A stretch of 46,099 bases of DNA from Rhizobium sp. (GCA_020621905.1 JAHRYZ010000003.1:1-46099); one strand, 5' to 3'. Numbered from the stretch's first letter, positions 7,564 to 45,749 are shown. Program-made: numbers and translations. The notes: generated by a model from the sequence alone, not told the origin.

Positions 7564-8220
7564 ATGACGGATATCGATTTCAGCCAGCCAGTCGGAAAGG
7601 TCGCAACGACCGTGCCAGGAGCAGCCGACCTGTTCCGTCGCCACGGGATTAGCTTCTGCTGCGGCGGCTCTGAACGGATCGACAAGGCCGCGGAAAAAGC
7701 CGGCCTTTCGCCAGACGTGCTACTGACGGAGTTGCAGACGCTAATGCTTGCCAGCCACCGGGAGGCTCCGGAGAGAACGGCGGAACTGATCGACCACCTG
7801 CGCAGCCGCTACCACGAAACACACCGCAGTGAACTGGCATGGCTGATTCCACTCGCACAGAAAGTCGAGCGTGTGCATAGCGCCCATCCTCAAGCCCCTG
7901 TCGGCCTCGCCAATCTCCTGGAGTGCATCCAGGCCGATCTCGAAGGCCACATGAGCCGGGAGGAGGCCATTCTATTCCCGTTGATGGAGCAGAACGACGA
8001 GGTCGTACTGGCCCACCCGATCGCGCAGATGCGCCATGAGCACGACGTGGAGGCACGGCATCTGGCCGCACTCGAACATGTCACCGGTGGCTTCACTTTG
8101 CCGGATGGTGCTTGCAACTCGTGGCGTGCCCTCTACACCAGCGCGAAGAAGTTTTCGGAAGACCTCGTTGAGCATATGCATCTGGAGAACAACGTGCTTT
8201 TCCCTCGCTTCGCCGGCTGA
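7564..8220 (+). CDS. ric: Iron-sulfur cluster repair di-iron protein (YtfE/ScdA/RIC/DnrN)
   Basis: ScdA_N motif 'DLFRRHGISFCCGGSERIDKAAEKAGL' and hemerythrin His/Glu motifs 'HMSREEAILFPLM', 'HEHDVEA', 'HMHLENNVLFPR'. Confidence 0.95.
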   Translation: MTDIDFSQPVGKVATTVPGAADLFRRHGISFCCGGSERIDKAAEKAGLSPDVLLTELQTLMLASHREAPERTAELIDHLRSRYHETHRSELAWLIPLAQKVERVHSAHPQAPVGLANLLECIQADLEGHMSREEAILFPLMEQNDEVVLAHPIAQMRHEHDVEARHLAALEHVTGGFTLPDGACNSWRALYTSAKKFSEDLVEHMHLENNVLFPRFAG

Positions 8221-8559: not shown

Positions 8560-9222
8560 CTAGATCGCCATCGCCCTCCCAGTGCACCGGTCGACACCAT
8601 CGGCAATGAGGGAAAGCGCTTGCCAGTTTTTGACGCAAAGGCGGCGATTCGTATCAAGGGAAATAGCCCTCTGCTGGACTAACTGACTGAAGACGCGAGA
8701 GACTGTCTCACCTCTCAAGCCGAGCCAATCGCCGATCTCGGTCCGCGTGAGCGGGAGACTCAGCGTCCCGCATGAAACTGGGTCAACACCGAATTGCAGG
8801 GCGAGATCCATAAGGACCGTGGCGATTCTTTGAACGGCCGTCTTGCCGCACAAGAGCGCGACATGCCGGTGGGAACGATCAAGGTTTTCGACGAGAGATT
8901 CGTGAATCATGCGGGCGTGCTTGCGAAGGTTGAGCACCTCGTACCGGCATTCTATGCGCACTTCGGATAAGCTAGGCCTACTGGGATGGACGAAGATACG
9001 GCCGGGACCATAGACGTCAACGACCTGCGCAATGCCGTTGGCCGTAAGCCGGCTATGCACAATGCATCCCTCGTGGATATGATAGACTGGTCCATCGGCG
9101 CGATCAGAAGCCGTGAGGATCGTGCCGATTGGGAAGATTTCCAATGCTGTCGCGGTTTTCCGCCGATTGTCCTCGATTGGCCGGGATACCACACGGCGTT
9201 CTGGGGATACCATCGAGTTCAT
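8560..9222 (-). CDS. Crp/Fnr family transcriptional regulator
   Basis: C-terminal HTH 'LPLTRTEIGDWLGLRGETVSRVFSQLVQQRAI' typical of FNR/FixK; effector domain upstream. Confidence 0.88.
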   Translation of the reverse strand: MNSMVSPERRVVSRPIEDNRRKTATALEIFPIGTILTASDRADGPVYHIHEGCIVHSRLTANGIAQVVDVYGPGRIFVHPSRPSLSEVRIECRYEVLNLRKHARMIHESLVENLDRSHRHVALLCGKTAVQRIATVLMDLALQFGVDPVSCGTLSLPLTRTEIGDWLGLRGETVSRVFSQLVQQRAISLDTNRRLCVKNWQALSLIADGVDRCTGRAMAI

Positions 9223-18057: not shown

Positions 18058-18090
18058 TTGATAGAGGCCAGTCCCATTTGCAAGGATTCC

Positions 18091-18560
18091 ATGCGAATGA
18101 CGCTTCACACCGACTATGCGTTGCGAATGCTGTCTACACGGCAACGCGACCGGACGGGGTTTGCACGGTCAGCGACGTCGCTGAGGCTTATCAGTTGCCT
18201 CGCAATCACCTTCTCAAGGTGGCCCAGACCTTGCGTGACCTCGGCTTCGTCGAAACGACCCGCGGCCGGGCGGGCGGTATCCGATTGGCGAAGTCACCAG
18301 AGGCGATTGGCGTGGGCGCACTGGTCCGCGCGACCGAGGAGGAGTTCTCGCTCGCCGAATGCATGCAGGCTCAAGGTCGGCCCTGCGCCATTTCGCCGGC
18401 CTGCCATCTCAAGGGCATGCTGCACGAGGCACTCGCTGCCTTCCTGGCGGTCCTCGACAAATACACGCTCGCCGACCTCGTGAAGAACCGCGCCGTCCTC
18501 GGCTCGTTTCTCGGGATCGGCGCTACCGCCAAGCTGGAAGAAGGGACACAACCATGGTGA
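18091..18560 (+). CDS. nsrR: Rrf2 family NO-responsive regulator NsrR, with apparent 1-bp deletion near 18132
   Basis: MRMTLHTDYALRML|(v)YTATRPDGVCTVSDVAEAYQLPRNHLLKVAQTLRDLGFVETTRGRAGG; Fe-S Cys pattern C-x7-C-x5-C 'ECMQAQGRPCAISPAC'. Confidence 0.85.
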
Positions 18561-25683: not shown

Positions 25684-25984
25684 TCCCTTTCAAGACGAGA
25701 GGAGTTTCTCTTCGCCAGCTGGGATTAGCCTCCCCAGCTTATGGCTCGCTTAAGTGCCGAAAGAAAATTGAACAGCAAGATCGACGATACGCCCTCGACG
25801 CAGGAGCGTAGACCACAATTGATGCCTCACCCGCTTTGGGCAATCCAAACGCCCAACGATCAATTCGCGATGACCGCACAGGAGTCTCAGGCTTGTGAGC
25901 GTGGTTGCAGCTCTCCTTCGGTCGGTCCATAAGACGCGAAACGTGCCAACAGTGCCACTGCATACTCAATTTGAATTTCGGCAA

Positions 25985-27423
25985 TCACGCCGTGTGGCTA
26001 ATCGAAGGCGGGGGCTGAGTATACTGATTCGCAGACACAGTCCTATTCCGGCCTGCTTCTTTTGCTCTATATAGGGCATCATCGGCAAGCCGAATGCAGC
26101 TCGCTGGTGTGACCGTTTCAGGATCCCGGGCAGACCAATTGAGACGGTAACAAGAACGCGCTCGCTGGCATCCGTTTCGATCGACAAGGACTCAACAATT
26201 GTGCGGATGCGTTCCGCCATCGCCATTGCCCCCGCCCCACTCGTATCGGGTAGGATCGCTGCGAACTCTTCGCCTCCATAACGAGCGATCGTATCGCCGG
26301 GTCGCATAGCGTTGGCTACGGCACCCGCCACCAATTTCAAAACATGATCACCTGCCTGATGACCATAGGTATCGTTGACGGATTTGAAGAAATCGATATC
26401 GATTAACAGTAGCGAGACCGGCGTTTTGTCACGGTCTGCTGATAAGCACACTGCGGACAAACGTTCATCGAATGCCGCGCGGTTCAACACACCGGTCAAT
26501 CCATCATGTGTCGAACGCCGATCTAGTTCTTGATATAACTCCTGCAACTTCTTCGTGGAAGTGTTCAACACCTCGCCAAGCCGCCCCAGCTCGTCGTCCT
26601 TGTTGCGCAGAATGACCCTGTAAGAGAGGTTCTTTCGTCCGATATTATCGGCAGCAACGGTCAATCTTCCTATGGATTCAAGTACCGAGCGGGACAAAAC
26701 AATAATAACTGCAGTTAGCACCAGAAAGCCAAGCAAGGCATAACTTAATATATGATAGAATGCTTTGCCCGCAATTGCCCTTCCAGCGTTTATACGCCAT
26801 TGTAGTTCCAAAATAGACAGTTGACGAAACTGAGCGACTAACGCGTTGACGTTTGCGATGTCAGTATGCGCCAAGGAATAGGCGTCAATCGCGTTCCGTG
26901 TGCCGGCATCTTGCCGGAACAGAGCGTCGAGGGAAGCACGGGATTGGCGCCAAGCAGCAACTAGTTCGTCAGCCAGTCTGTCAGCGGACGGCGTAGCGGG
27001 ATGGTCCTTTGCTTGTGCGTCGAAAAATATCCTGAAGTTCTCGGAAACTTCAGCTATAGTCGGCTCTGGCTTCTCGACCCCCCAGGTATCAAGGCCGAGC
27101 GCGTGTGTAGTCGCAATAGCTTCGATCTGATAAAGCAAATCCTGAGCGACAAAGATCGGCGACATCCTCGCCGTAATCGCTGTTATGCTGCTTTCATAGG
27201 ATTGAACCAAGGTGCGTCCTGAGACGATCGCGATAACACCCATCAGAACCAAGCCGGATATGGCGAAGGCAAATGAAAACCGAAACCGTGTCTTGATTGA
27301 GAAATGAAATGGCGAGCTTATCGCCGGCCACACTTTCCCGAACGACGAAGCTCCAAAAGAACTCGAAGCTACGCGGCACCGAGCCTTATGGATGGCAAAT
27401 ACAAAGCTAGGGATTCTCGTCAA
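25985..27423 (-). CDS. Membrane-anchored diguanylate cyclase (GGDEF), frameshifted near C-terminus
   Basis: 'THDGLTGVLNRAAFDERL', 'DIDFFKSVNDTYGHQAGDHVLK', 'RYGGEEFAAILPDT'; tail 'LADDALYRAKEAGRNR' only in another frame. Confidence 0.85.
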
Positions 27424-27995
27424 TTCGCTCTCGCCGGCTGTTTTTCATCAGGCAAAGCTATAACGATGAGATCCTAAAATTCGCTTTGCATGATTGAATG
27501 ATATCTAATGGATGAGCGCGGTGGATATGCAACCGGGAGCACCAGAGGCTCACTGGATGGCCAGCTTGTCGCCGGCATCGGCGTTAGATTGGCTACCGCC
27601 CTACACTGTCCGACGCGTTCTCGAGGCAATTTCGCCTTTAAAGGCTCCACATTGTCGGGACGAACTGCTTTGGAAGCCGATTCGTGCCGTGTTGCCATTC
27701 AATTCTGCATGATTATCAGTTGCCAGCAGCGTCTTCTTCATATGCAGCCCCCTTTCTGACACGTCCAATGTCCCGCACCTCCACGACCGCCGTGACGAAG
27801 AGGAAACCTACGGGCCGGGCCGTAATGGCAGACCTGCAGGCTCAAGGTTCGATACGTCGACTGAGCACGTGAGCATGCAGTGCCTCCGCGCATTCTGGAC
27901 CCAGATCGGCGCTTCGAAGCGGTCGGATTGGATATTGTTGCAACAATCGGCATTCGCGGGCCTCCGTCCCCTTGAAAAAAGGCGGCAACCAGATT

Positions 27996-28017
27996 AGATA
28001 GTAATTACTCACTATCT
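27996..28017. promoter_or_regulatory. Candidate TetR operator AGATAGTAATTACTCACTATCT
   Basis: Dyad AGATAGT/ACTATCT, 12 nt upstream of the TetR start. Confidence 0.6.
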
Positions 28018-28028
28018 CTCGGAGTCTC

Positions 28029-28640
28029 ATGATGATCTCGCGATCAGCCTATCTTTCAGCAGAGGAGCGACGGGAGGCCACGGTGGAAACCGTCCTCGAT
28101 CTCGCTGCGGAACAGAATCCCACAGACATTACAACTGGGGCAATTGCAAAGCGCATGGGTGTGACGCAAGGGGCCCTGTTTCGGCACTTCCCTTCCAAAG
28201 ACGCCATTCTCCAAGCCGTTATGGAGTGGGTTTCGGAGCGTTTACTTACACGCATAGATCGGGCGATTTCCACGAAAACCTCCCCGCTCGATGCCCTCGA
28301 AGCTGCATTCATGGCGCATATCGAATTCATATCGGAACATCCGGGCGTCCCTCGGATGCTGTTCGGAGAATTGCAGCGCGCCGAACAGACCGTGGCCAAA
28401 CGAATGGCACAGACATTGATCCAGTGCTACGGCGAACGCCTCGGCCGTCTCATTGCGGAGGGCAAAGAAAGCGGTGAGCTCACGCCCTCTTTGGAAGAGA
28501 AAACTGCTGTCACACTGTTTGTCGGCATGACCCAAGGCTTGGTCATGCAATCCCTCCTCGCCGGCGACGTGAAACGCATCCGCACGAGCGCGCCGGCCGT
28601 TTTTGCGCTTTATCGGCGTTCCATCGAGGTGGCAAAATGA
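28029..28640 (+). CDS. TetR/AcrR family regulator
   Basis: HTH 'DITTGAIAKRMGVTQGALFRHFPSKDAILQAVMEWV'. Confidence 0.93.
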   Translation: MMISRSAYLSAEERREATVETVLDLAAEQNPTDITTGAIAKRMGVTQGALFRHFPSKDAILQAVMEWVSERLLTRIDRAISTKTSPLDALEAAFMAHIEFISEHPGVPRMLFGELQRAEQTVAKRMAQTLIQCYGERLGRLIAEGKESGELTPSLEEKTAVTLFVGMTQGLVMQSLLAGDVKRIRTSAPAVFALYRRSIEVAK

Positions 28641-29023
28641 TCCACAGTTCGCCGTCCGACCCATCACCGATGAAATCCCTCGAAGCCATGTTTATGGCTG
28701 ATGTCGCCTATGTCGCGGGCCATCCTAACATTCCCCGCATCTTGCTCGGTACACTGGCGACCAAGGAGAAGTCCGCGCTAAAGCTGATGCTCGAGGCCTT
28801 TGTTCGGCGATACGAGCGGCGTATCTCCTGTTTGATCGAAGAGGCGCAACAATGCGGCGAAGTCCGAGCCACAGTGGACAAGGAAGGTGCTGCCCGCCTG
28901 TTTATTGCAGCAATCCAGCACTTGGTCTTCAGGGCGCTGGTCGCGGATGAATTAAGCAAGATTCGCGAGGCAGCTCCTGCTGCTTTCACATCATATCGCC
29001 GATGCCTGGAGGCAATTCAATGA
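28637..29023 (+). CDS. HTH-less TetR C-terminal-domain-like protein
   Basis: Aligns by eye to C-terminal domain of the upstream TetR (LEAmFMA..HPniPRiLlGtL...); no HTH; ATGA overlap on both sides. Confidence 0.8.
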   Translation: MIHSSPSDPSPMKSLEAMFMADVAYVAGHPNIPRILLGTLATKEKSALKLMLEAFVRRYERRISCLIEEAQQCGEVRATVDKEGAARLFIAAIQHLVFRALVADELSKIREAAPAAFTSYRRCLEAIQ

Positions 29024-30213
29024 AACTTCCTTCTTTACAACGCCGCAGCTTGATGCTGATCGCGATTGTGATCCCGATTGTCGCCCTGTTCGGCTACGTG
29101 GTCCTGCGATCGGGGCCACTGGCGCCAGTCACTGTGATGACTGCTAGCGTCGAAGCCCGGTCCATATCGCCCGCATTGTTTGGTATCGGCACTGTTGAAG
29201 CTCGCTTCTCCTACAAGATTGGCCCGACCATCGCCGGCCGCGTCGGCAAAGTATATGTCGATGTGGGCGACAGGGTGCGCGCTGGTCAGGTTCTGGCGGA
29301 ACTAAACCCTGTAGATCTCGATGATCGCATTGCAGCCTTAGATGCGGCGACTCGCCACGCCGAAGAGTCAATAAAAGCAGCCAAAGCTGAGTTGGAAGAT
29401 GCCTTGGTGCGCAAAGATTACGCCGATGCGCAGGCCAAACGCTATGACCAACTTTGGAAGAATCACACTGTCAGCGAAATGGCCGTGGAAACTAAACGAC
29501 AAGACAGTGAGGTAGCACTTGCCGCAGTCTCTGCCGCACAGTCAAATCTCGCGGCCGCACAACAGAACCTGCAACGCAATCGCGCCGATCGTGACGGCCT
29601 AATCAAGCAGCGGGAGGACTTAGTACTGCACGCGCCGGTCGACGGGGTGATTGCTGCACGCAACGCGGAACCTGGGACAACCGTAGTCGCCGGTGAGGCG
29701 ATCATAGAGATGATCGACCCCAAAGAACTCTGGATCAATGCCCGGTTCGATCAGATAGCATCAAATGGCCTGCGCACAGGGCTTTCCGCTCGCATCTCGC
29801 TCCGGTCGCATGGCGACATATCTGCTCCAGGACAAGTGTCGCGCGTGGAGGTCCTCGCAGATTCCCTGACTGAAGAGAATTTGGCGAAGGTGGGATTCGA
29901 CGCTCTGCCCGAGCCTCTTCCTCCGATCGGAGAGCTGGCCGAAGTAACGATTGCACTGCCAGGGCTTTCCGCAACGCCCACGATCCCGAATGCCGCTATC
30001 CAAAGTGTTGCTGGAAAGACAGGGGTTTGGAAAGTCGAAGAGGGAAAAGCCCGCTTCACCGCCGTTGAATTAGGGGCTTCGGACCTGGACGGGATCGTCC
30101 AAGTTACAAAAGGCCTCCAGACTGGTGATGAAATTGTGGTTCATAGCGCATCCCGACTGACAGGCACGAGTCGTATTCAGATCACGGACAATCCTGCGGA
30201 GCTTATCAAATGA
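29020..30213 (+). CDS. Efflux membrane fusion protein (HlyD/MacA/DevB-like)
   Basis: 'VGKVYVDVGDRVRAGQVLAELNPVDLD', coiled-coil hairpin, 'APVDGVIAARNAEPGTTVVAGEAI'. Confidence 0.93.
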   Translation: MKLPSLQRRSLMLIAIVIPIVALFGYVVLRSGPLAPVTVMTASVEARSISPALFGIGTVEARFSYKIGPTIAGRVGKVYVDVGDRVRAGQVLAELNPVDLDDRIAALDAATRHAEESIKAAKAELEDALVRKDYADAQAKRYDQLWKNHTVSEMAVETKRQDSEVALAAVSAAQSNLAAAQQNLQRNRADRDGLIKQREDLVLHAPVDGVIAARNAEPGTTVVAGEAIIEMIDPKELWINARFDQIASNGLRTGLSARISLRSHGDISAPGQVSRVEVLADSLTEENLAKVGFDALPEPLPPIGELAEVTIALPGLSATPTIPNAAIQSVAGKTGVWKVEEGKARFTAVELGASDLDGIVQVTKGLQTGDEIVVHSASRLTGTSRIQITDNPAELIK

Positions 30214-31412
30214 TTAGCCTAGCAGGACGCGATATCCTCCATTCATGGGGCAAATTTGTCTTCACCGGCGTCGGGCTCGGACTGTTGATCGGTGTCACTT
30301 TCACCATGGCGGGCGTCTATCGGGGCATGGTCGATGACGGCAAGGTGCTGCTCGACAACAGCGGCGCCGACATGTGGGTCGTCCAGCAGAATACGCTGGA
30401 GCCATATGCAGAATCCTCAAGCATCAATGATGATATCTACCGGATGATCCTGACGACTCCCGGCGTCGAACAAGTTGCGAATGTAACCTATCTGACAATG
30501 CAGGTCCGAAAAGGAAACACTGACGTTCGGGCGATGGTGGTCGGTATCGCGCCGGGTAATGTCGTGACACCCGGCTGGCCGCCATTTCTTGCTGCCGGGC
30601 GTCAGATCACGCGCGGCCATTATGAAGCCGTGGCCGATGCCGCAACCGGCTTTGCGCTCGGAGACACCATCGTTATCCGGCGAAATCACTACACCGTCGT
30701 TGGCCTCACCCGACGCGCAGTATCGTCGAGCGGCGATCCAATGGTCTTCATTCCGCTGAAGGACGGGCAGGAAGCGCAGTTCGTCAAGGACAACGATTCC
30801 ATTGTTCGACAGCGTCGTCGCACCGGCGAGAACCCCGAATTCAACCGGCCGGGAGTTCCTGGTCTGTTGGATGCCGTCATCGCCTCACAAAACAGTAATC
30901 CTTATGTGAACGCTGTTCTGGTGCGTATCAAGCCCGGTTACGAACCGGAGCGCATCGCATCCGACATCGCCAAGTGGAAACGACTGACGGTCTATACGCG
31001 CTCGCAGATGGAGGAAATTCTGATCGGCAAGCTGATTGCGACCTCTGCCAAACAAATAGGCATGTTCCTCGCCATCCTGGCCATCGTTAGTGCAGCCATC
31101 GTCGCGTTCATCATCTACACGCTCACGATGGACAAGATACGTGAGATTGCCGTGCTGAAACTGATCGGCACACGCAATCGCACCATCGCCTCCATGATCT
31201 TGCAACAGGCGATTGTGCTCGGGCTAATCGGATTTGTCGTCGGCAAGATCACGGCAACCTTTGCGGCGCCACTGTTCCCGAAGTTCGTTCTGCTTCTGAC
31301 CGAAGATACGATGACTGGGCTTGTTGCAGTTGTGATCATATGCGCGCTGGCGAGCGTGGTGGCTATCCGTGTGGCGCTCAAAATCGACCCCGCTGAAGCG
31401 ATTGGAGGTTGA
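30210..31412 (+). CDS. ABC transporter permease, FtsX/MacB/DevC type
   Basis: Four TM segments with large periplasmic domain; 'DKIREIAVLKLIGTRNRTIASMILQQAIVLGLIG'. Confidence 0.92.
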   Translation: MISLAGRDILHSWGKFVFTGVGLGLLIGVTFTMAGVYRGMVDDGKVLLDNSGADMWVVQQNTLEPYAESSSINDDIYRMILTTPGVEQVANVTYLTMQVRKGNTDVRAMVVGIAPGNVVTPGWPPFLAAGRQITRGHYEAVADAATGFALGDTIVIRRNHYTVVGLTRRAVSSSGDPMVFIPLKDGQEAQFVKDNDSIVRQRRRTGENPEFNRPGVPGLLDAVIASQNSNPYVNAVLVRIKPGYEPERIASDIAKWKRLTVYTRSQMEEILIGKLIATSAKQIGMFLAILAIVSAAIVAFIIYTLTMDKIREIAVLKLIGTRNRTIASMILQQAIVLGLIGFVVGKITATFAAPLFPKFVLLLTEDTMTGLVAVVIICALASVVAIRVALKIDPAEAIGG

Positions 31413-31413
31413 G

Positions 31414-32124
31414 ATGGCTAGTGGTGGAATTCTCATCGAAGGGCTCAGGAAGCGGTATGGTAATGGCGATACCGCAGTCGATGCTCTCAAAGACATCAAT
31501 ATGCGGGTCGCCCCAGGCGAAGTGGTCGGTCTTATCGGCCCATCGGGCTCAGGCAAGAGCACGTTGCTTAAGGCGTTGGGGGCGGTTATTGATCCCAGCG
31601 CAGGACACATGACCCTCGGCGATGGGGTGATCTATCACGATGGCTGGAAGATCCCTGACCTTCGCGCTTTGCGGCGCGACAAGATCGGATTCGTCTTCCA
31701 GGCACCGTACCTCATACCGTTTCTCGATGTGACCGATAACGTAGCATTGCTGCCAATGCTGGCGGGCGTCCCCAACAGCGAATCGCGCCAGCGCGCGCGT
31801 GATCTCCTAAAAGCTCTTGATGTCGAACATCGCGCCGCTGCCATGCCTTCCCAGCTTTCCGGCGGCGAGCAGCAACGCGTTGCAATCGCGCGCGGGCTCA
31901 TCAACCGCCCGCCGGTTATCCTGGCCGACGAACCGACCGCACCGCTCGACAGCGTGCGTGCCCTGAACGTCATCCGCATCCTGAACGACATGGCCGTCAG
32001 GTTCGGAACTGCAATCATCGTCGTTACCCATGATGAGAAGATTATTCCGACCTTCAAGCGCATCTACCACATCAGAGATGGCGTGACTCACGAAGAGGCG
32101 GGAGAGGGTCGTGGTTTTGATTAA
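31414..32124 (+). CDS. ABC transporter ATP-binding protein (DevA/LolD/MacB type)
   Basis: Walker A GPSGSGKST, 'LSGGEQQRVAIARGL', Walker B 'VILADEPTAPLDS'. Confidence 0.95.
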   Translation: MASGGILIEGLRKRYGNGDTAVDALKDINMRVAPGEVVGLIGPSGSGKSTLLKALGAVIDPSAGHMTLGDGVIYHDGWKIPDLRALRRDKIGFVFQAPYLIPFLDVTDNVALLPMLAGVPNSESRQRARDLLKALDVEHRAAAMPSQLSGGEQQRVAIARGLINRPPVILADEPTAPLDSVRALNVIRILNDMAVRFGTAIIVVTHDEKIIPTFKRIYHIRDGVTHEEAGEGRGFD

Positions 32125-34854: not shown

Positions 34855-35127
34855 TCACAGCCACGCAGAAGCATGGCGTGCAACATCGCCGTTACCGCCA
34901 TCGAGCCCTTCGACGAATTGGAGCGCATCCCAAAGCGGACGGCAAATCGCGGTTTCCACATCCTGCGTCGTTGCGCCACGATAGGCCATGGATATTTCCG
35001 CCTCGATCGGACGAAAACCGGGAAATGTCTCCCGCTTCAAGGCCGGAAAAGAAAACAAGCCAGCGGCGATGAAAAGCAAAAGCAACAGGTTCGAGGCTGT
35101 CGGATGCGCTGTAAACCAGCGGATCAT
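34855..35127 (-). pseudogene. N-terminal fragment of RND efflux transporter (AcrB family)
   Basis: 'MIRWFTAHPTASNLLLLLFIAAGLFSFPALKRETFPGFRPIEAEISMAYRGATTQDVETAICRPLWDAL' then unrelated sequence and stop. Confidence 0.85.
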
Positions 35128-36471
35128 GACTGCACCTCAATCGGCAAAAGATTGGCGTCGGGAATTGCCGGTGTGACGTCATCAAGTACCAGACGGTCAC
35201 CCGCTGCCAGACCTTCGGCAATCACGGCAAGTCCATCCTGCCTGAAAGCTTCGGTGACCGGGCGTAATTCGAGTTGATCATCAGAATTGGCGAGATAGAC
35301 CTGATCGCCGTGCAGCGCAGTTTCCGGCATAACCAGCGAGCCGCGAATTATCTGGCCAGTCAAGGTGACCTCGACGAGCATGTTGGGCAACAGTGGCGTA
35401 CGTAAAGGCGGATTGGATCACCATAAGGATCCTCTACTGTAACCACGACGGGGACCGTCCGTGCCCTTGCATCAAGTGCACCCTCTACGCGGGTCACAGT
35501 TGCAGGCCAGGTTTGCGTTGGGTCGGACACCAACCGCACCTCAGCTGCTATGCGGCTGGACGGGCCGTTGCGAATTGCCGCTAGGGTATCCTCGACCGGC
35601 TCTGTCCGTGAAGAAGTCGCCGAAAGACGTCAAAGGGCAATTGCGCCACGACTTCAACCCGGGCCACGCCGTCCGCCTTCACCAGCGTCTGGCCGACATT
35701 GACATATTGGAACCGCTCTGCAGTCACCGAAGTTATCCGCACATCATAGGGGGTCATGATGGAAGTATGGTCCAGGTCCCGCTGATTGCGGACCAGGGCA
35801 GCTTTGGTGCGGGCGGCCTGCGCCGCCAGCGCGGCGCGGAGCGATCAGAGCCAGTGTGTTTTTCAACTCGACGACATTGCGCTGTGCAAGAAGGGTAGCA
35901 CGCTCGGCCTCATCAACGCGGGTCTGCCCCATCACGCCTTTGTTAGAAGGTCGCGGTTGCGCACAAGTTCGCCTTCCGACAGAGCCAGCCGCGCTTCTTC
36001 CAGAGCCAGGATACGGCGAGTGTTTTCTGCTTCGGCATCGATCTGCGCCGCCTCGGCTTCAAAGGCGGCCAGATCTGCCTCCGCCTGAACTATCGCCAAC
36101 CGATAATCGGCCGGATCGATTTCAAGCACCTTGGTACCGCCGGCGATCAGTTTTCCACTTTCCAGGTCAGAGTGACGCCAGATGACCTGACCCTTTACCT
36201 CAGAAACCGGGGCCCAGGTTTCCGCCGCGTACGCGTTACCCCAGCCACGCGCCACCTGTGCGATATCCACAGGCTCAAGTAAAGAGGTGCGCACTGCACG
36301 CCCAACAATCGGCTCATCGGAGCGTGCCGGTCCTTCGGCCCCGCTGATGAAGATGGCGGCAACTACGATCCCCAGCACAATGGGTAGCAGAAACAAAATA
36401 CGGAACTGCGGCGCAAGATCGGCTTCCTCTTCATCAAGGTCTTGGACACCAAGGGTACAACGGAACAGCAA
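35124..36471 (-). pseudogene. RND membrane fusion protein, multiple frameshifts
   Basis: N-terminal part in ORF 35932..36471, C-terminal part in ORF 35124..35390 ('GSLVMPETALHGDQVYLANSDDQLELRPVTEAFRQDGLAVIAEGLAAGDRLVLDDVTPAIPDANL'). Confidence 0.8.
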
Positions 36472-36510: not shown

Positions 36511-36879
36511 TCATCGTTTTGCGGTGCTTGCCCAGGCCGCGAGGCTCCAGAAGCCGAAGCGCACTATCAGCGCACCCAAGGTCCGCGTCTCCCACTCCTG
36601 GCCAGCGGCAATAATTGCAAGAAACAGCGCAAACAGTCCGCCCAACGCCAGGGCCAGTATGATAGCAAGCTTCTTGCCCACATGGTGACCGAGAAAGATG
36701 CCAATACCGGCTGCAATATAGACCGGCCCTGACAGGAAATTGAACCAGAGCACCAAGGGCACGAATTGCCCAGCCGCCACGCGGGCCGCGTCTGGACCAA
36801 AAAGCACCATGCCGCCTGACCAGAGTGTCAACAAGCCAAAGGCAACGGCCAGCACCCCCAATAACCGATTACGTATCAT
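36511..36879 (-). CDS. Small membrane protein of unknown function
   Basis: About 122 aa, 4 hydrophobic segments; start overlaps the upstream ORF tail. Confidence 0.65.
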   Translation of the reverse strand: MIRNRLLGVLAVAFGLLTLWSGGMVLFGPDAARVAAGQFVPLVLWFNFLSGPVYIAAGIGIFLGHHVGKKLAIILALALGGLFALFLAIIAAGQEWETRTLGALIVRFGFWSLAAWASTAKR

Positions 36880-37150
36880 TCACGGTTCCTCCCTTTTTAT
36901 GTCCATCGTAGCAGTCCATAGGTTTCTGGCGCGCCAGCACCAGACCTTGGCGGAACGGCCGCCCCTCCCCGAGCGCTTCCAAGGTCTCTCGACCCCAGAT
37001 ACCTTGACCCGTTCCGCTACGGGACCAAAGCGAACCACTGCTCAGGATCGAGATACGGCACTGCAGGTATCCGCAACGGACGGCGATAAGGATTGTGGTC
37101 GCGATCCGAGTACCCACCAACCTTGCGCCAGGCCTCGTCGGCGGTCATTG
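36869..37150 (-). pseudogene. Small ORF broken by frameshifts: MTADEAWRKVGGYSDRDHNPYRRPLRIPAVPYLDPEQWFALVP|...|LGEGRPFRQGLVLARQKPMDCYDGHKKGGTVNDT*
   Basis: ATGA overlap with the upstream exported-protein gene; coding-like segments in different frames. Confidence 0.4.
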
Positions 37151-37501
37151 CTGCACGCGCAGAATTTGACCTTCAGAGTTGCGGTAGCTGCCATCTTCGA
37201 GCGCCTCGAAACTGGTGCAGGTTTTACCGCGCTTTGGTCCATCAACCATGGTCATGCACAGGCCATCTTCGGCATAGGCCCAAGTGCCAGAGCCGGAAAT
37301 GAAGCCGGCTTTCATGTTGACACTGCCATCAACATTGTAGCGTAGGCGCGCTGTCATGCCGAGACGCACTGTTGTCAGATCCTTGCCAATGATCTGCTGG
37401 GCGATCTGCTCTCTCGATAGAGTTGCAGCAAAGGCCGATTGGCTGATCAGGACGCTAGCTGCGAAAACGGCGGGACGAAGAAATCTAGGAGTGTGACGCA
37501 T
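37145..37501 (-). CDS. Exported small protein of unknown function (DUF995-like?)
   Basis: Signal peptide 'PAVFAASVLISQSAFA'; 'GSGTWAYAEDGLCMTMVDGPKRGKTCTSFEALEDGSYRNSEGQILRV'. Confidence 0.65.
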   Translation of the reverse strand: MRHTPRFLRPAVFAASVLISQSAFAATLSREQIAQQIIGKDLTTVRLGMTARLRYNVDGSVNMKAGFISGSGTWAYAEDGLCMTMVDGPKRGKTCTSFEALEDGSYRNSEGQILRVQQ

Positions 37502-37542: not shown

Positions 37543-37565
37543 GTAATAGATTACTCACTTTGTAA
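37543..37565. promoter_or_regulatory. Candidate TetR half-operator GTAATAGATTACTCACTTTGTAA
   Basis: Reverse strand TTACAAAGTGAGTAATCTATTAC matches the palindrome at 37649 (TTACAAAGTGATCAATCACT) and the ACTCACT core at 28007. Confidence 0.5.
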
Positions 37566-37653: not shown

Positions 37654-37671
37654 AAAGTGATCAATCACTTT
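37654..37671. promoter_or_regulatory. Candidate TetR operator AAAGTGAT-CA-ATCACTTT
   Basis: Perfect 8-bp arms, immediately upstream of the TetR-like gene. Confidence 0.65.
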
Positions 37672-37684
37672 TTTTGAGGTTCTA

Positions 37685-38304
37685 ATGATTTTACACACCA
37701 AGCACCTGTCTGCCGAGGACCGGCGTAGTGAGGCTGTCGAGGCGGTGATCGACCATGCCGCCATCACAATCCCGAAAAATCTTCCGCCTGTGCACGTATG
37801 AAGCTAACCCAGAGTGCCTTGTTTCGGCATTTTTCGACCAAAGATGCAATCTGGCTAGGGGTGATGGAGTGGGTATCCGACCGGCTCTTGTCGCGGATCG
37901 ACAAGCTGGCGGGAGCGGAGCCTGATCCGCTGTTGGCACTCGAGGCGATGTTCCTGGGGCACATTGAGTTCGTGGCCGACCACCCTGGTGTGCCGCGCAT
38001 GATGATGGGTCAATTGCAGCGCGCCGGGATGAATCCGGCCAAGCAGATGGCGCAGACCTTGATGCAGAACTATGCCACGCGGTTGCGCCGCCTCCTCGCG
38101 GCGGCCCGCGGCAATGGCGCCCTGCCTTCGGACCTCGATGAAGCAGCCGCAGCAACGCTGTTTCTCGGCATGATCCAAGGTCTGGTAGTGCAATCATTGA
38201 TGCATGGTGACAGCGCGCGGATGCGCGCGGATGCGCCAAGGGTCTTTGCAATCTATCGCGCGGGCCTGTTGCAGGGTCGGGCCAGAATGGAGGAAGGCGC
38301 ATGA
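37685..38304 (+). pseudogene. TetR family regulator with damaged HTH (paralog of 28029..28640)
   Basis: N-term 'MILHTKHLSAEDRRSEAVEAVIDHAA' then deletion/frameshift; 'MKLTQSALFRHFSTKDAIWLGVMEWVSDRLL...' continues in ORF 37798..38304. Confidence 0.75.
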
Positions 38305-39725
38305 AGTTGACCGTTCTTGGGGCGGCGCGCGAAGTGACCGGCTCGTGCTATCTGGTCGAAACCAGCTCAGTGCGGTTCCTGGTTGATTGCGGAATGTTGC
38401 AGGGCGGGCGTGAGGCGGACTCGCGCAACCGCCAGCCTTTTGCTTTCGATCCGGCAACCCTGGATTTCGTACTCCTGACCCATGCACATATCGACCACAG
38501 CGGGATGTTGCCAAAACTCACGAAAGACGGGTTCCGCGGACCGATCCTCACCACCGCAGCCACCGCCAATCTGCTGGAGGTGATGTTGCGCGACAGCGCC
38601 CATATCCAGGAGGCCGACGCGGCACGAGCAGCACGCGGGCAGCACAGTAGGACTCGGGCGCGGCTTGCCCCGACCGCCCCAATTTACGTAATGCACGATG
38701 CAGAAGCCTGCCTGAAGCAAGTGCGCCCGATACCCTATGATAAAAAGATTTTTCCACACCCCGATTTGGCATGCACGTTCCGCGATGCCGGGCATATTCT
38801 CGGATCCGCCATTCTCGAACTCTGGATCAAGGAAGCGGGAAAATCCACGAAGTTGGTCTTCAGCGGCGATCTGGGTCAACCCGGGCGGGCGATCTTGCGC
38901 GACCCGACGCCGATTGGCGATGCCGACATCCTGGTAATGGAATCAACCTATGGGGACCGCATGCATCGCGATCAGACCGCGACGCTCGACGAAATGGTCA
39001 CGATCATCACTGAAACCCGCAGGCGTGGCGGCAATATCATCATGCCTGCCTTTGCGGTCGGCCGCACCCAGGAGGTTCTCTATCACCTGCATTGCTTGGC
39101 GCGGCAGGGAAGATTGCACGACCTGAACATATTTGTCGATTCGCCGATGGCCGATCGCGCTACGCAGATCACCGCAGAGCATCTGGATCTGTTCGACAAA
39201 CAGGCCGCACGCTTGGAATGGCACAATACCGGTGTGGGTCTGCAAATGCATTTTACCGCGAGCGCCGAGGAATCGAAGGCCCTCAACCAGATCCGGTCGG
39301 GTGCGATCATCATTTCAGCCAGTGGCATGTGCAATGCCGGTCGCATCCGACATCATTTGCGCTGGAATCTGCCGCGCCGGGAATGCGCGGTGGTGATCAC
39401 TGGCTTTCAGGCGCAGGGAACACTTGGGCGGCGTCTCGTGGATGGTGCGCGGAAGGTGCGCATCTTTGGCGAGGACATCGCGGTGCGCGCCTCGGTGCAT
39501 ACCCTAAACGGCTTCTCCGCCCATGCCGATCAGCCAGCGCTACTAGGCTGGGCTACAGGGTTTCAAAAACCGCCCGCACAGGTTTACATTACCCATGGTG
39601 AGACTACTGCCGCCGAAGCGCTTGCCAAACGCCTACGTGCGGAACTGGGTTGGAATGTCACAGTTCCCGCAGTTGGCATGATACAGGAATGGGCGCCCGC
39701 CGAATTAGACGAGGCTCGGCAATGA
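38301..39725 (+). CDS. Beta-CASP metallo-beta-lactamase fold RNA exonuclease
   Basis: 'LTHAHIDHSGMLPKL', 'LVMESTYGDRMH', 'MPAFAVGRTQEVLYHL', 'IISASGMCNAGRIRHHL', 'LNGFSAHADQ'. Confidence 0.95.
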   Translation: MKLTVLGAAREVTGSCYLVETSSVRFLVDCGMLQGGREADSRNRQPFAFDPATLDFVLLTHAHIDHSGMLPKLTKDGFRGPILTTAATANLLEVMLRDSAHIQEADAARAARGQHSRTRARLAPTAPIYVMHDAEACLKQVRPIPYDKKIFPHPDLACTFRDAGHILGSAILELWIKEAGKSTKLVFSGDLGQPGRAILRDPTPIGDADILVMESTYGDRMHRDQTATLDEMVTIITETRRRGGNIIMPAFAVGRTQEVLYHLHCLARQGRLHDLNIFVDSPMADRATQITAEHLDLFDKQAARLEWHNTGVGLQMHFTASAEESKALNQIRSGAIIISASGMCNAGRIRHHLRWNLPRRECAVVITGFQAQGTLGRRLVDGARKVRIFGEDIAVRASVHTLNGFSAHADQPALLGWATGFQKPPAQVYITHGETTAAEALAKRLRAELGWNVTVPAVGMIQEWAPAELDEARQ

Positions 39726-40504
39726 GCGGGCCATCAGATCGGGTCACGCTCATTTCAGAGATCCTAGCCAGCCCATCGTACCGGCTGGCCGAGGAAGATG
39801 CCGATTTGCTGGGCGCCGACGACCTGCGCCCCCTGCGCCTGCAGCTTGAGCTGCTCAAGCCCGAACGCGTCCTGCGCCGAAACGGCATCCGTTCGACCGT
39901 GGTGGTGTTCGGCAGCGCTCGCATCGCCCAATGCGAAACCACGCCAGACACGGCACGGGCCCGCCGTCAGGCGCGCTATCTTGATGAGGCGCGGCGCTTT
40001 GCGGCATTGGTCTCACGGCGCTTTCAGCAGGAAGGGCGGTGCGATTTTGTCGTCGTCACAGGCGGCGGCCCCGGCATCATGGAGGCGGCAAATCGTGGCG
40101 CATGGGAGGTCGGCGGTCGCTCTATCGGACTGAACATTACTCTGCCACACGAACAAGCGCCCAATCCATTTATCACCCCCGAACTAGCGTTCCGGTTTCG
40201 CTATTTCGCGATCCGCAAGATGCATTTTGCAGTGAGGGCCAAGGGAATGGTTGCCTTTCCCGGCGGATTTGGCACGCTCGATGAGTTATTCGAGCTATTG
40301 ACCCTGGTACAGACGGGAAAGATGACGCCGATCCCAATCGTGCTGGTCGGGGCCTCTTTCTGGCGACAGGCAATCAATTTTGACTTCCTGATCGAGGAAG
40401 GCATGATTGCTGCGGCTGACGCGGCGCTATTTACGCTTGTCGAAACCGCTGAAGAGGCAGTCGCTGCCTTGCAGGACTTCTACCATGGCAGCCCCCCGGA
40501 CTAA
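39722..40504 (+). CDS. LOG family protein (TIGR00730-type, YgdH/PpnN-like)
   Basis: 'VVFGSARIA', 'VVTGGGPGIMEAANRGAWEVGGRSIGLNITLPHEQAPNPFI', 'MVAFPGGFGTLDELFELLTLVQTGK'. Confidence 0.94.
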   Translation: MSGPSDRVTLISEILASPSYRLAEEDADLLGADDLRPLRLQLELLKPERVLRRNGIRSTVVVFGSARIAQCETTPDTARARRQARYLDEARRFAALVSRRFQQEGRCDFVVVTGGGPGIMEAANRGAWEVGGRSIGLNITLPHEQAPNPFITPELAFRFRYFAIRKMHFAVRAKGMVAFPGGFGTLDELFELLTLVQTGKMTPIPIVLVGASFWRQAINFDFLIEEGMIAAADAALFTLVETAEEAVAALQDFYHGSPPD

Positions 40505-40561
40505 TAGGCCCACTGCATTGGAAATGATCCGCCCCATTCGGGCGACTAGGAGAGAAGACCG

Positions 40562-41587
40562 ATGTCACGCAAGATTTCCATAGCTATTGTCCTCGGCGTA
40601 TTGGTCGGCCTGCTGGGGTTCGGTGCTTGGACGGTGCTGCTCAAGCCTTCGGGCTTACCGCCCGAGGGTTTCGCACGTGGCAACGGCCGGATTGAGGCGG
40701 ATCTTGTCGACATATCGCCGCGGTTAGCCGGACGAGTGGCAGAAATCACAGTGCATGAAGGCGATCTGGTTGCCGCAGGTGATGTATTGGTGGTGATGGA
40801 TACTGCCGAGTTGCGCGCGCAGCTAGCCCGCGCGGATGCAGCGGTGGCCAGCGCCGAGGCGGCCGTTGGGGTCGCTGCCGCGCATGTTGCTGAGGCCCGC
40901 GCTCGGCTGGCGCTCGCACAAAGTCAGCAATCTCGCGCGGAAACGCTAAGCGTTCGCAACGTAGTCTCGCGAGAGGACCTCGATATCCGTCGCACCGAAA
41001 CGCAGCTGGCCGAGGCGGCGCTGACTGCGGCCGAAGCCACGCAGCGTGCGCAGGAGCGCAGCGTCGAGGCCGAATCCGCCGCACGTGCTGAGATTGCTGC
41101 ACGTATCGCCGATTCCACCCTTTACGCAGGTGGCCCCGCGCGGGTGCTCTATCGGTTGGCACAAGGCGGCGAGATCGTCGGCAGCGGGGGTAAGGTTCTT
41201 ACGCTTGTCAGCCTCGAGAATGTCTACATGGAATTCTTCCTGCCCGCCGATGAAGCGCCCCGGTTGCGCGTCGGCGACGATGGACGCAACGTCGCCGAAT
41301 CATCCGTGTCGATTACGGCAAGGTTATCTTCATCACCGCAAGCTCAGTTCACGCCCAAGCAGGTCGAGACCCTGACTGAACGCGAGAGCCTGATGTTCCG
41401 TGTCCGGGTACGCATCCCGCCCGAGCTGGTGGCGGCGCGGATTGATCAGGTCAAGACCGGTGTGCGCGGTGTGGCCTGGGTGCGTTTAGCACTCGACGAC
41501 GGAAGCCTTCCAGAATGGCCTGAAGGACTGACGCCGCCGTTGGCCCCTGTTTCGCCAGCGGCCGGCCCGAACCCGGTCCTGCCATGA
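40562..41587 (+). CDS. yhiI: HlyD family secretion/adaptor protein (YhiI-like)
   Basis: '[46 protein letters not shown]', adjacent to rbbA-like gene. Confidence 0.88.
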
Positions 41588-44342
41588 CCGATACACCCGA
41601 ACCCATCGCCCGCCTTGAGCATGTCCGTCACCGGTTCGGCAAGGTTGCGGCACTGGACGATGTCACACTCTCGCTACCCGCGGGACGGATGATTGGACTG
41701 ATCGGCCCAGACGGGGTCGGCAAATCGACACTCATGGGCCTGGTGGCGGGGGCCAAACGTTTGCAGGAGGGCACGGTTGTGACCCTGGGCGGCAGCATGG
41801 GCGATGCACGTCACCGCGCCTCTGTGGGCGGGCGCATTGCCTATATGCCACAGGGGCTGGGGCGCAACCTCTATCATGACCTGTCGTTGCGCGAGAACCT
41901 GGAGTTCTTCGGCAAGCTTTTCGGGCTCAATCGGTTCGAGCGAGCCGTGCGCATGGTGAGTCTGACCTTCGCGACAGGGCTTCACCCCTTTCTCGACCGA
42001 CTGGCGGGAAAACTGTCGGGCGGCATGAAGCAGAAGCTGGGACTGTGTTCAGCACTGATCCATGACCCGGATTTCCTGCTGTTGGACGAACCCACGACGG
42101 GGGTTGATCCTTTGTCACGCCGCCAGTTCTGGGATCTGATCGACGCGATCCGCAATGATCGACCAGGGATGAGCGTCCTGGTTTCAACAGCATATATGGA
42201 AGAAGCGGCGCGTTTCGATCATCTGGTGGCAATGAACGCCGGGCACGTACTGGCTGAGGCTAGTCCACGTGATCTGATGACGCAAACTGCGACCGACTCG
42301 GTTGGTGCGGCCTTCGTCGCGCTGTTGCGGGCCAATGCAGAAAAGACGAATCCAGTCGAGGCGGCGGTGGAGGCTCCCACCCCGACTGAGGCGATCGCCA
42401 CGCCTCAGACGGAGGCCAGCGAAGACCCGGCCATTCGGGCGCGTGGCCTTACCAAACGCTTTGGTGATTTTACGGCGGTGGAGAATGTCAGTTTTGACAT
42501 CGCGCGCGGCGAAATCTTCGGCTTTCTCGGATCCAACGGCTGCGGCAAGACCACGACGATGAAAATGCTGACCGGCCTTTTGCCGGCCTCCGAGGGTGAG
42601 GCCTGGATCTTCGGTCGCCCGGTTGATGCGCAGAATCCACAAGCACGCCGGCGAGTCGGCTTTATGTCGCAGGCGTTTTCACTATATGGCGAACTGAGCG
42701 TGCGTGAAAACCTGATGCTGCATGCGCGTCTGTTTCATCTAGGGCGGGTGAGGACGGATCAACGCTTGGCCGACCTGGTGCCGCGTTTCGGACTTGAGCC
42801 TATCTCGACCAGCGCGCCGATGCGCTGCCTCTGGGTCTGCGTCAGCGGCTTTCACTGGCTGTGGCGGTAATCCACGCGCCCGAAATCCTGATTCTGGACG
42901 AACCGACCTCAGGCGTTGATCCGCAGGCGCGCGATGACTTCTGGAGGCTGCTGCTGGATTTGTCGCGCCAGGATCGGGTGACGATCTTCATCTCGACCCA
43001 TTTCATGGACGAGGCGATGCGTTGCGACCGAATCTCGTTGATGCACGCAGGCAAGGTTCTGGTCACCGACCGCCCCAGCGACATCATGCTGGCGCGCGAT
43101 GCCGCGACGTTGGAGGAGGCCTTCATTGCGTTTATCTCAGCCGAGATACCGCCCGAACCCGCAAGCGCTGCGGCACTGGTTGTCGCATCGGACAATGTCG
43201 GCGACACCTCCAGCTTCAGCCTTCGCCGCCTTTTCGCCTATACAACGCGGGAGGCAATGCAGGTCCGGCGAGACCCGGTCCGGCTGGCCTTCGCCTTTCT
43301 GGGCAGCGCTCTGCTGCTCTTGATAATGTCCTTCGGCATCTCGCAGGAGGTGCGCAACATCCCCTTTGCCGCCCTTGATCAGGACCGCAGCCCTGAAAGT
43401 CGTGCCTATCTCTCAACCTTCGAGGATTCAATCTGGTTCCAGACCCATGCGCCGATCCTCGATCCGGCGGCGATGGAACAACGCCTGACCAGCGGCGAGT
43501 TGTCACTCGCACTGCAGATACCGCCCGGTTTTGGGGCCGACCTGCGGCGCGGAAGCAAGGTCGAGGTAGCGGCAATGATCGACGGTGCCGATACCTCGCG
43601 CGCGGGCACGGTGGAAAGCTATGTCTCAGGCGCCCATACAACGGCTCTGGGAGATGCAGGGGCTATGCTGGCTCTGGACATGCTGAGCCCCACGACAACG
43701 CCGGTTCAACTAACGCCGCGCTTTCGCTACAATCCAACGATGGCGAGTTTGCCCTCGACCGGCCCTTCGATCCCGCCGCTCCTTCTCTTGTTGTTCCCGG
43801 CGATCTTGATGGCGGTCAGCGTGGCGCGCGAAAAAGAGATCGGCACAATCACCAACTTCTACGTCACTCCTACCGGGCGGACCGAGTTCCTAATCGGAAA
43901 GCAGCTGGTCTACATCGGCATCACGCTGATGAATTTCGCAATTTTAACGGCGCTGGTGGTCCTGGTCCTCGGAGTGCCCTTGCGCGGCGATCCACTGGTG
44001 CTTTTGCTGGCATCCTTTGTCTATGCGGTCGCGGCAACTGGCTTTGGCCTGCTTGTCTCTATGATGTCGGCAACGCAGGTCACGGCGGTCTTTGCCAGCA
44101 CCGTCCTGTCGGTGATGCCGACGCTGCAGTTTTCCGGGATGATGACACCGGTTTCATCTCTGGAAGGCCGGCACGGATATTGGGCAGCTTCTGGCCGACA
44201 ACGGTATATGGCCGTCAGCGTCGGCACATATACCAAGGGACTAGGCCTGATCGATCTTAGCGCAGCGCTGATGCGTCTGGCGGTGTTCGGCCCTGTCTTC
44301 ACCGGTCTTGCGATCCTCACTTTGCGCAAGCAGGAGCGGTGA
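41584..44342 (+). CDS. rbbA: RbbA-like fusion: two ABC ATPase domains plus ABC-2 permease; one frameshift near 42815
   Basis: NBD1 '[33 protein letters not shown]'; NBD2 'GSNGCGKTT' with degenerate signature '[38 protein letters not shown]'; C-terminal ABC-2 permease. Confidence 0.88.
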
Positions 44343-44343
44343 C

Positions 44344-45468
44344 ATGCAGCGAATTGAGAACGTTTTCTGGCTAGTTGGCAAGGAATTGAAAAGCGTGCTG
44401 GGTGACCCGGTGATGGTGATCCTCATTCTGTGGTCCTTTGTCGTCGCCGTGATGCTCGAGGCGAGCGGTGCCGGCGACACGGTGAAGAACGCTGCCATCG
44501 CCATCGTGGACGAAGACCACTCGCCATTGACGCGACAGATTACAGAGGCGCTGATGCCGCCGTGGTTTCAGACGCCCGTCGCTATGGCCCCCGATCAGGC
44601 CGAGGCGGCTTTGGACCGGGGCGAAATCATGTTTGCTCTGGCTTTTCCGCCATATTTCGCCGCCGATACCATTGCGGGAAAGGCGCCGGTCGCCCAGCTT
44701 CTCGTCGATGCCACCGCAGTGTCCCAGGCCCAGCTCGGCACCGATTATATCCGCAGCATCGTGCAGGCCGAAGCTCTTGCTTTTGTGTCGGACAGCACCA
44801 AGGTGCCGGCGCCGCAGTTACAGCTGGAGCTGCGCCGTGCATTCAACCCTAATGGTAACCCGGTCTGGTTCAAGGCGATGTCCTCGCTCTTGAACCAGTT
44901 ATCGCTCTTGACCATCGCGCTGACTGGGGCGGCGATGCTGCGCGAGCGCGAACACGGCACTATTGAGCATTTGATGGTGATGCCACTGACTCCAGTCGAG
45001 GTGGCGTTGTCGAAGGTCCTGGCTACGATGCTGGTTGTATTGGCCGCTTTCATTGGCTCCCTGTTGGTCGTGGTCCAGGGGTTATTGCAGGTACCGGTTG
45101 CGGGATCGGTGCCGCTGCTGGTGGCGGGGGCCGCAGTTTACCTTTGGGCCGCCGCAGCGATCGGGATGCTTCTGGGCACATTGGCGCGCAGCATGGCACA
45201 ATTCGCGCTACTGGTAATCATGGTCATCATCCCGGTTATCATGCTGTCGGGCGGAATGGGGGCCGTCGAAAGCCAGCCCGATCTGGTGCAGAAGCTGACT
45301 TTGGCGCTGCCCTCTCGTCATTTTCTGGCCTTCGCCAAAGCGGTGGCTTTTCGCGGTGCTGGGCTGACCATAGTCTGGCCACAGCTTGCGCTAATGGCGG
45401 GATTGGGGATCGCATTCTTCGGGGCAAGCCTTACCCTGTTTCGTCGCTCGATGAGCCTGAGCGGTTGA
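44344..45468 (+). CDS. yhhJ: ABC-2 type transporter permease (YhhJ-like)
   Basis: 'LVGKELKSVLGDPVMVILILWSF', 'REREHGTIEHLMVMPLTPVEVALSKVLATMLV'. Confidence 0.92.
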   Translation: MQRIENVFWLVGKELKSVLGDPVMVILILWSFVVAVMLEASGAGDTVKNAAIAIVDEDHSPLTRQITEALMPPWFQTPVAMAPDQAEAALDRGEIMFALAFPPYFAADTIAGKAPVAQLLVDATAVSQAQLGTDYIRSIVQAEALAFVSDSTKVPAPQLQLELRRAFNPNGNPVWFKAMSSLLNQLSLLTIALTGAAMLREREHGTIEHLMVMPLTPVEVALSKVLATMLVVLAAFIGSLLVVVQGLLQVPVAGSVPLLVAGAAVYLWAAAAIGMLLGTLARSMAQFALLVIMVIIPVIMLSGGMGAVESQPDLVQKLTLALPSRHFLAFAKAVAFRGAGLTIVWPQLALMAGLGIAFFGASLTLFRRSMSLSG

Positions 45469-45735: not shown

Positions 45736-45749
45736 TTGATATACATCAA
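45736..45749. promoter_or_regulatory. FNR/Anr/FixK box TTGATatacATCAA
   Basis: Exact TTGAT-N4-ATCAA consensus, 158 nt upstream of the antiporter ATG. Confidence 0.9.

Follow-up and report, generated by a model that had tools for sequence, protein, structure and literature searches.

What holds a repressor, a ribonuclease (RNase), a nucleotide-cleaving enzyme and a membrane exporter together in one array? The question is raised by positions 37,685 to 45,468 of a 46,099-nucleotide (nt) stretch of Rhizobium sp. DNA (GCA_020621905.1, JAHRYZ010000003.1:1-46099; this whole stretch is called the window below), where the six genes tetR-MBL-LOG-yhiI-rbbA-yhhJ run in one direction. An interpretation made from the DNA alone, here the sequence-only reading, took the cassette for a dedicated RNA/ribosome stress module rather than plain drug efflux. 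We find that plain efflux plus RNA and nucleotide enzymes under one TetR fits better, and we consider it probable (about 0.6) that the cassette is a TetR-controlled export regulon, or operon, that recruited the RNase and a nucleotide phosphoribohydrolase.

Coupling and conservation of the six genes

All six genes are present in the DNA and belong to the families first named for them, with corrections that are given below for LOG, rbbA and tetR2 (lengths in amino acids, aa):

37685..38304, + strand: tetR2, predicted autoregulatory repressor gene; in-frame body 37798-38304; the Hoeflea homologue is intact (208 aa)
38301..39725, + strand: MBL/beta-CASP/RMMBL ribonuclease of TTHA0252 type, 474 aa, with all catalytic motifs
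39722..40504, + strand: type-II LOG phosphoribohydrolase (TIGR00730, PGGFGT motif)
40562..41587, + strand: HlyD/YhiI-like membrane fusion protein, 39% identical to E. coli YhiI versus 27% to YbhG
41584..44342, + strand: rbbA, two ATPase domains and an ABC2 permease; frame broken near 42796 by the loss of one base
44344..45468, + strand: yhhJ-like ABC2 permease, 44% identical to E. coli YhhJ

The profile families recovered were the TetR C-terminal domain, MBL with beta-CASP and RMMBL, TIGR00730, HlyD, RbbA (NF033858) and ABC2 permease. The DNA bears out the reported ATGA overlaps at tetR/MBL (38301-38304), MBL/LOG (39722-39725) and yhiI/rbbA (41584-41587), as well as the spacing of 1 nt (position 44343) from rbbA to yhhJ. 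Between LOG and yhiI lies a 57-nt gap with a ribosome-binding-like stretch, and a search of this gap for a terminator-like site found none. The six genes are supported as one coupled, conserved candidate transcription unit rather than a chance array.

On a plasmid of Hoeflea sp. IMCC20628 all six genes stand in the same order, with the same ATGA couplings and an intact rbbA; 98% of the query aligns in one piece at 74.8% DNA identity. Ruegeria sp. XHP0148 has the same order, TetR-MBL-LOG-HlyD-RbbA-YhhJ, and in a genome from another family of the order (G041) these parts are divided between TetR-LOG-MBL-phosphoketolase and a divergent HlyD-RbbA-YhhJ set. The neighbourhood is conserved outside the strain in both Hoeflea and Ruegeria; its confinement to this strain, which the sequence-only reading had named as one outcome that would undo it, was not obtained.

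We surveyed the neighbourhoods of 80 RNase relatives in genome contigs by identity class, looking for an exporter within about 9 kb. An ABC2 exporter was near the RNase at 5/8 loci of at least 60% identity, at 3/14 of 52 to 60% and at 0/58 below; the corresponding counts for TetR were 6/8, 1/14 and 0/58. Fisher tests of the first against the last class gave p values of about 6e-6 (ABC2 exporter) and 3e-7 (TetR), which are rough because they assume uniform placement and independent genomes. A second survey covered 398 genomes of the phylum, with listed coordinates compared by hand. RNase and LOG were both present, at the thresholds used, in 27 of the 398, and lay at most 2 kb apart in 8 of these 27, the window included (7 of the 26 others); three of the eight represent one genus and are therefore not independent.

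The exporter beside the RNase is of RbbA type in the window, Hoeflea, Ruegeria, Dechloromonas, a Rhodocyclaceae metagenome-assembled genome (MAG) and G041. It is of YbhGFSR or similar type in Dokdonella, Luteimonas, Parapusillimonas, a Bradyrhizobiaceae MAG and Thiobacillus, and DevBCA/MacB-like in Piscinibacter, a label that comes from a partial ATPase match. The distribution of exporter types disagrees with the RNase tree, which requires four or more changes for each of the two main labels, and RbbA is therefore exchangeable. Judged from these loci, what stays constant is TetR with the RNase, often LOG and a small membrane protein, and what varies is the exporter; hence a ribosomal role of RbbA is not the organising principle, and the step to a ribosome-stress module is not supported.

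That module, in which RbbA would act at the ribosome together with the RNase and LOG, draws on RbbA-family ATPase domains 60% identical to E. coli in the N-terminal half and on the altered global mRNA levels of a mutant in TTHA0252, a relative of the RNase described below. The ribosome role itself is weakened by the 2025 retraction of a main RbbA-ribosome paper (PMC12169533), although truncated E. coli RbbA has since been reported to affect translation in vitro (PMC12096078), a point in favour of the module. Against it, YbhFSR or DevBCA exporters replace RbbA beside close relatives of the RNase, and a membrane fusion protein and a second permease accompany RbbA. Besides, of the 25 other genomes in the 398-genome set that have both RbbA and the RNase, only 2 have them within 10 kb of each other, and in these the RNase is a distant relative. 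We consider the ribosome module very improbable, and the name "ribosome-associated ATPase RbbA" should not be taken as function.

E. coli offers two comparisons for the exporter. Its yhiI-rbbA-yhhJ genes are the same three in the same order (HlyD 39%, RbbA 55% for the Hoeflea copy and YhhJ 44% identical), but no TetR, MBL or LOG is attached to them, whereas in the cassette the exporter is the exchangeable part. The other is cecR-ybhGFSR, a TetR-controlled ABC2 exporter for tetracyclines and ethidium (PMC7190983), in which a TetR gene likewise comes first, followed by HlyD, a two-domain ATPase and ABC2 permeases, but the E. coli stretch has neither an RNase of the TTHA0252-type family nor LOG. 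In a Parapusillimonas relative of the cassette, a YbhGFSR-type exporter adjoins the RNase; this set, the only one of its type compared directly with E. coli, is 58% identical to YbhF, 45% to YbhS, 40% to YbhR and 48% to YbhG. Orthology of the TetR to CecR was rejected, neither the Hoeflea nor the window TetR giving a match to CecR at E 1e-3.

The predicted TetR operator

The inverted repeat AGTRANNNNTYACT precedes closely related TetR genes, and by sequence only it is also found at the promoter of the cassette's own tetR:

37654..37671: putative TetR operator AAAGTGATCAATCACTTT, with its core AGTRANNNNTYACT at 37656-37669; exact palindrome; the tetR ATG (37685) follows about 14 bp downstream
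37545..37560: degenerate second operator copy AATAGATTACTCACTT before the divergent small gene; two mismatches, weak, one half conserved in Hoeflea
28000..28013: further operator of this class, AGTAATTACTCACT, before tetR1

The operator is confined to this family of repressors. In the window the core pattern has two matches, both before tetR genes; the 4.4-Mb bin has three, at tetR1, at tetR2 and inside a transposase-like gene. Piscinibacter (6.9 Mb) and Luteimonas (2.8 Mb) each have a single site, in both cases before TetR. Of the two Ruegeria sites, each at the head of a TetR-led unit, one belongs to the RNase operon, with a small membrane gene between it and tetR, and the other to a TetR-RND unit. 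Dokdonella has three sites, which lie before TetR-hypothetical-MBL, before an HlyD-YbhF exporter and before another TetR. The spacing of operator to homologous tetR genes is similar in other genera. As for background, the pattern matched nowhere in 0.82 Mb of Ciceribacter DNA and once in 1.03 Mb of loci surrounding distant relatives of the RNase.

Predicted TetR-site units also exist without an RNase, with RND in Ruegeria and DevBCA/MacB in the window. At L215:16187-16746, a TetR 27% identical to the Hoeflea TetR has the same operator before an RND unit, and the data suggest that the operator is conserved across divergent TetRs. This distribution is the best evidence that the RNase and the exporter share a repressor, and the predicted co-regulation of RNase, LOG and exporter is well supported.

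Several observations weigh against such a regulon. Fewer operator matches than in a reversed-pattern control were counted in Ruegeria and the lower-GC genomes G041 and G059, and barely more in Parapusillimonas, so that in these genomes support for the operator comes only from where the sites lie. No site was found at the more distant TetRs of loci G041, G046, L040 and L045, and LOG was not found in the RNase-exporter loci L032 and L037. In the strain itself, the repressor gene tetR2 and the ATPase gene rbbA are broken as assembled.

The two enzymes and the proposed function

The RNase contains the motifs HAHIDH, AGH, SGDLG, ESTYGDR, FSAHAD and ITHGE and is of the TTHA0252 type, with Pfam Beta-Casp and RMMBL above cut-off. 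Its closest solved relative is TTHA0252 of Thermus thermophilus (2dkf; E 8e-101), a 5'-3' exoribonuclease with which all MBL and beta-CASP motifs align. A strong beta-CASP profile similarity also links it to Cas14 of type VII CRISPR (NF045584, 384 bits), but identity with Cas14 was rejected, as the score is below the cut-off of 800 and the match spans model positions 1-440 of 612, ending about 170 short.

The second enzyme had been called a LOG nucleotidase; the family holds, but the nucleotidase label is better replaced by type-II nucleotide phosphoribohydrolase. It scores 109.7 bits with TIGR00730 (cut-off 96.35), has the PGGFGT motif and an N-terminal extension of about 100 residues, and qualifies as type II. 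Its best structural match is 5wq3, which we take to be the entry for Cg1261 of Corynebacterium glutamicum, and the two have the N-terminal extension and the PGGFGT loop in common. Cg1261 is a type-II LOG phosphoribohydrolase (PMC5379747); its partners differ from those of the window LOG, for which a cytokinin role is not implied.

Elsewhere, a phosphoketolase gene directly follows the RNase gene (L025:9375-13172), and in G181 the genes for MBL, phosphoketolase and acetate kinase are consecutive.

In the 398-genome set, AckA lies within 11 kb of the MBL gene in 5 of the 44 genomes with both. This recurring closeness to acetate kinase and phosphoketolase suggests that the RNase neighbourhoods may point to energy-limited conditions. 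Literature searches on MBL/LOG/USP/phosphoketolase islands or RNA ribose fermentation returned no relevant paper.

Such neighbours would also suit an account in which RNase and LOG are a general stress or low-oxygen pair, inserted by chance behind a mobile TetR-efflux unit and without functional link to export. It agrees with the LOG-MBL pairs that lack adjoining exporters in Sulfitobacter, G184 and G197, with the AckA genes near MBL, a phosphoketolase gene lying between the two in G181, and with the occurrence of the cassette on a plasmid and in islands. Nevertheless, exporters of three types are found in association with the RNase, orthologues of TetR accompany it from locus to locus, Dokdonella has one operator before the RNase unit and another before the exporter, and the overlaps keep the Hoeflea genes translationally coupled. 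We regard a passive insertion of this kind as unlikely.

For the preferred reading, the TetR-controlled export regulon, we infer the repression itself, the ligand, the substrates in vivo and the benefit to the cell as follows. A TetR dimer on AGTRANNNNTYACT before its own start codon would shut off tetR-MBL-LOG-yhiI-rbbA-yhhJ until it is released by a ligand (probably an amphipathic toxic compound or metabolite). Coupled translation would then yield pump, RNase and LOG together. The pump would remove the compound, the RNase, of TTHA0252 type and thus a 5'-3' exonuclease and probably also an endonuclease, would turn over transcripts or stable RNA, and LOG would split nucleoside 5'-monophosphates (5'-NMPs) into free base and ribose 5-phosphate. 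Where tetR2 is broken, the intact TetR1, which has the same operator class, might act in trans.

A closed RNA-to-export route is a more ambitious and, in our view, improbable version. Here the RNase would yield 5'-NMPs, some of them modified and beyond salvage, LOG would remove the base, the freed ribose 5-phosphate would feed ATP-yielding phosphoketolase/acetate kinase chemistry, the exporter would expel the bases and TetR would sense such a base. We know of no earlier regulon joining RNA decay, nucleotide cleavage and efflux, and the route, if true, would be the first. The role of the CPSF-like RNase class in bacteria is poorly known, and the predicted regulon, with one operator, one TetR family and interchangeable exporters, would tie this class to efflux in a testable way. 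The cassette also illustrates exporter exchange under a conserved repressor in horizontal transfer.

Broken frames and the surrounding island

The family of rbbA was named correctly, but the gene is not a single open frame; it consists of two, 41584-42870 and 42798-44342. The intact Hoeflea gene has one base more, at about 42796; the loss falls in the second ATPase domain, after Walker A and before the signature/Walker B, whereas a -1/-2 pair at 44167/44202 is self-compensating. Membership in NF033858 takes a full-length match of more than 1050 bits; because of the frameshift the window pieces were scored separately (N-terminal 643 bits, C-terminal 655 bits), and the intact orthologues of Hoeflea (1358 bits) and Ruegeria (1354 bits) both exceed the cut-off. 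All motifs are present in the window, although two complete ATPase domains and an ABC2 permease do not form one chain there; the chain is unbroken in E. coli and Hoeflea. In tetR2, the ATG at 37685 and the TetR body are in different frames, the switch falls at about 37770-37800, and about 10 bp present in Hoeflea are missing inside the helix-turn-helix. The TetR_N helix-turn-helix domain is lacking because of this frameshift and is present in the Hoeflea orthologue and the window tetR1.

Single-base deletions occur outside the island as well. An Rrf2-family (NsrR/RirA-like) regulator at 18074-18133, beside ccoNO, has a one-base deletion at 18133 relative to three siblings, with an N-terminal frameshift, and the frameshifts of the window may therefore be assembly errors. 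Genome-wide frameshift noise was rejected, since open reading frame statistics of the other contigs match a finished sibling; yet deletions of one base are seen in the window both within the island and beyond it. A single-base assembly error cannot account for the truncated RND pump listed below. It is conceivable, though not what we favor, that the island is pseudogenising and the cassette functionless in this strain, which would be compatible with any reading of its intact relatives. The shifted tetR2, rbbA and RND adaptor and the truncated RND pump accord with decay, but the MBL, LOG, HlyD and YhhJ genes are intact, and the same kind of deletion in the otherwise conserved Rrf2 gene is as expected from assembly error. 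In a separate case, at 5763-7111, the window has in five pieces a gene that is about 450 aa long in a sibling, and this looks like a true pseudogene.

The cassette sits in an acquired, lower-GC island. From 25.9 kb on, GC content is mostly 55-60%, against 64.6% in the other contigs of the bin. From there to the window end, nothing similar was found in the fetched sibling Ciceribacter stretches, whose corresponding locus lacks the cassette; 37.8-45.5 kb aligns with the Hoeflea plasmid instead. Much of 1-25.9 kb aligns with sibling Ciceribacter genomes at 84-97%, and these alignments, with several siblings, rule out a misbinned contig. Synteny with Hoeflea extends to two small divergent genes and an RND unit, which is broken in the window. 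The neighbouring features are as follows:

37145..37501, - strand: small secreted protein encoded divergently, a conserved companion; predicted to form a small beta-barrel, without Pfam match
36511..36879, - strand: small membrane protein, four long helices predicted; no Pfam match
34855..36393, - strand: remnants of an RND unit, namely a frame-shifted adaptor and the initial 76 aa of the pump; syntenic with Hoeflea
28029..28640, + strand: tetR1, intact tetR2 paralogue, 54% identical to the Hoeflea TetR
29020..32124, + strand: DevBCA/MacAB-type exporter after tetR1, with HlyD at 29020-30213, MacB/FtsX permease at 30204-31412 and ATPase at 31414-32124

A fold search with the small secreted protein gave weak matches only (best E 6e-3), and small membrane proteins of the 36511..36879 type recur beside the RNase in several genera. 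Near the island edge lies a HAMP-GGDEF diguanylate cyclase gene (25969-27444, - strand). A perfect FNR/FixK box, TTGATATACATCAA, at 45736-45749 lies upstream of an arginine-ornithine antiporter-like gene (start 45907) that runs off the contig; FNR control of the cassette was rejected, since this sole perfect box precedes the next gene and none is near the cassette. Further away, the window encodes a RIC/YtfE-type iron-sulphur repair protein (7564-8217) and a Crp-type regulator (8563-9213), of which Pfam found the helix-turn-helix half only; together they may reflect a nitric oxide or low-oxygen theme.

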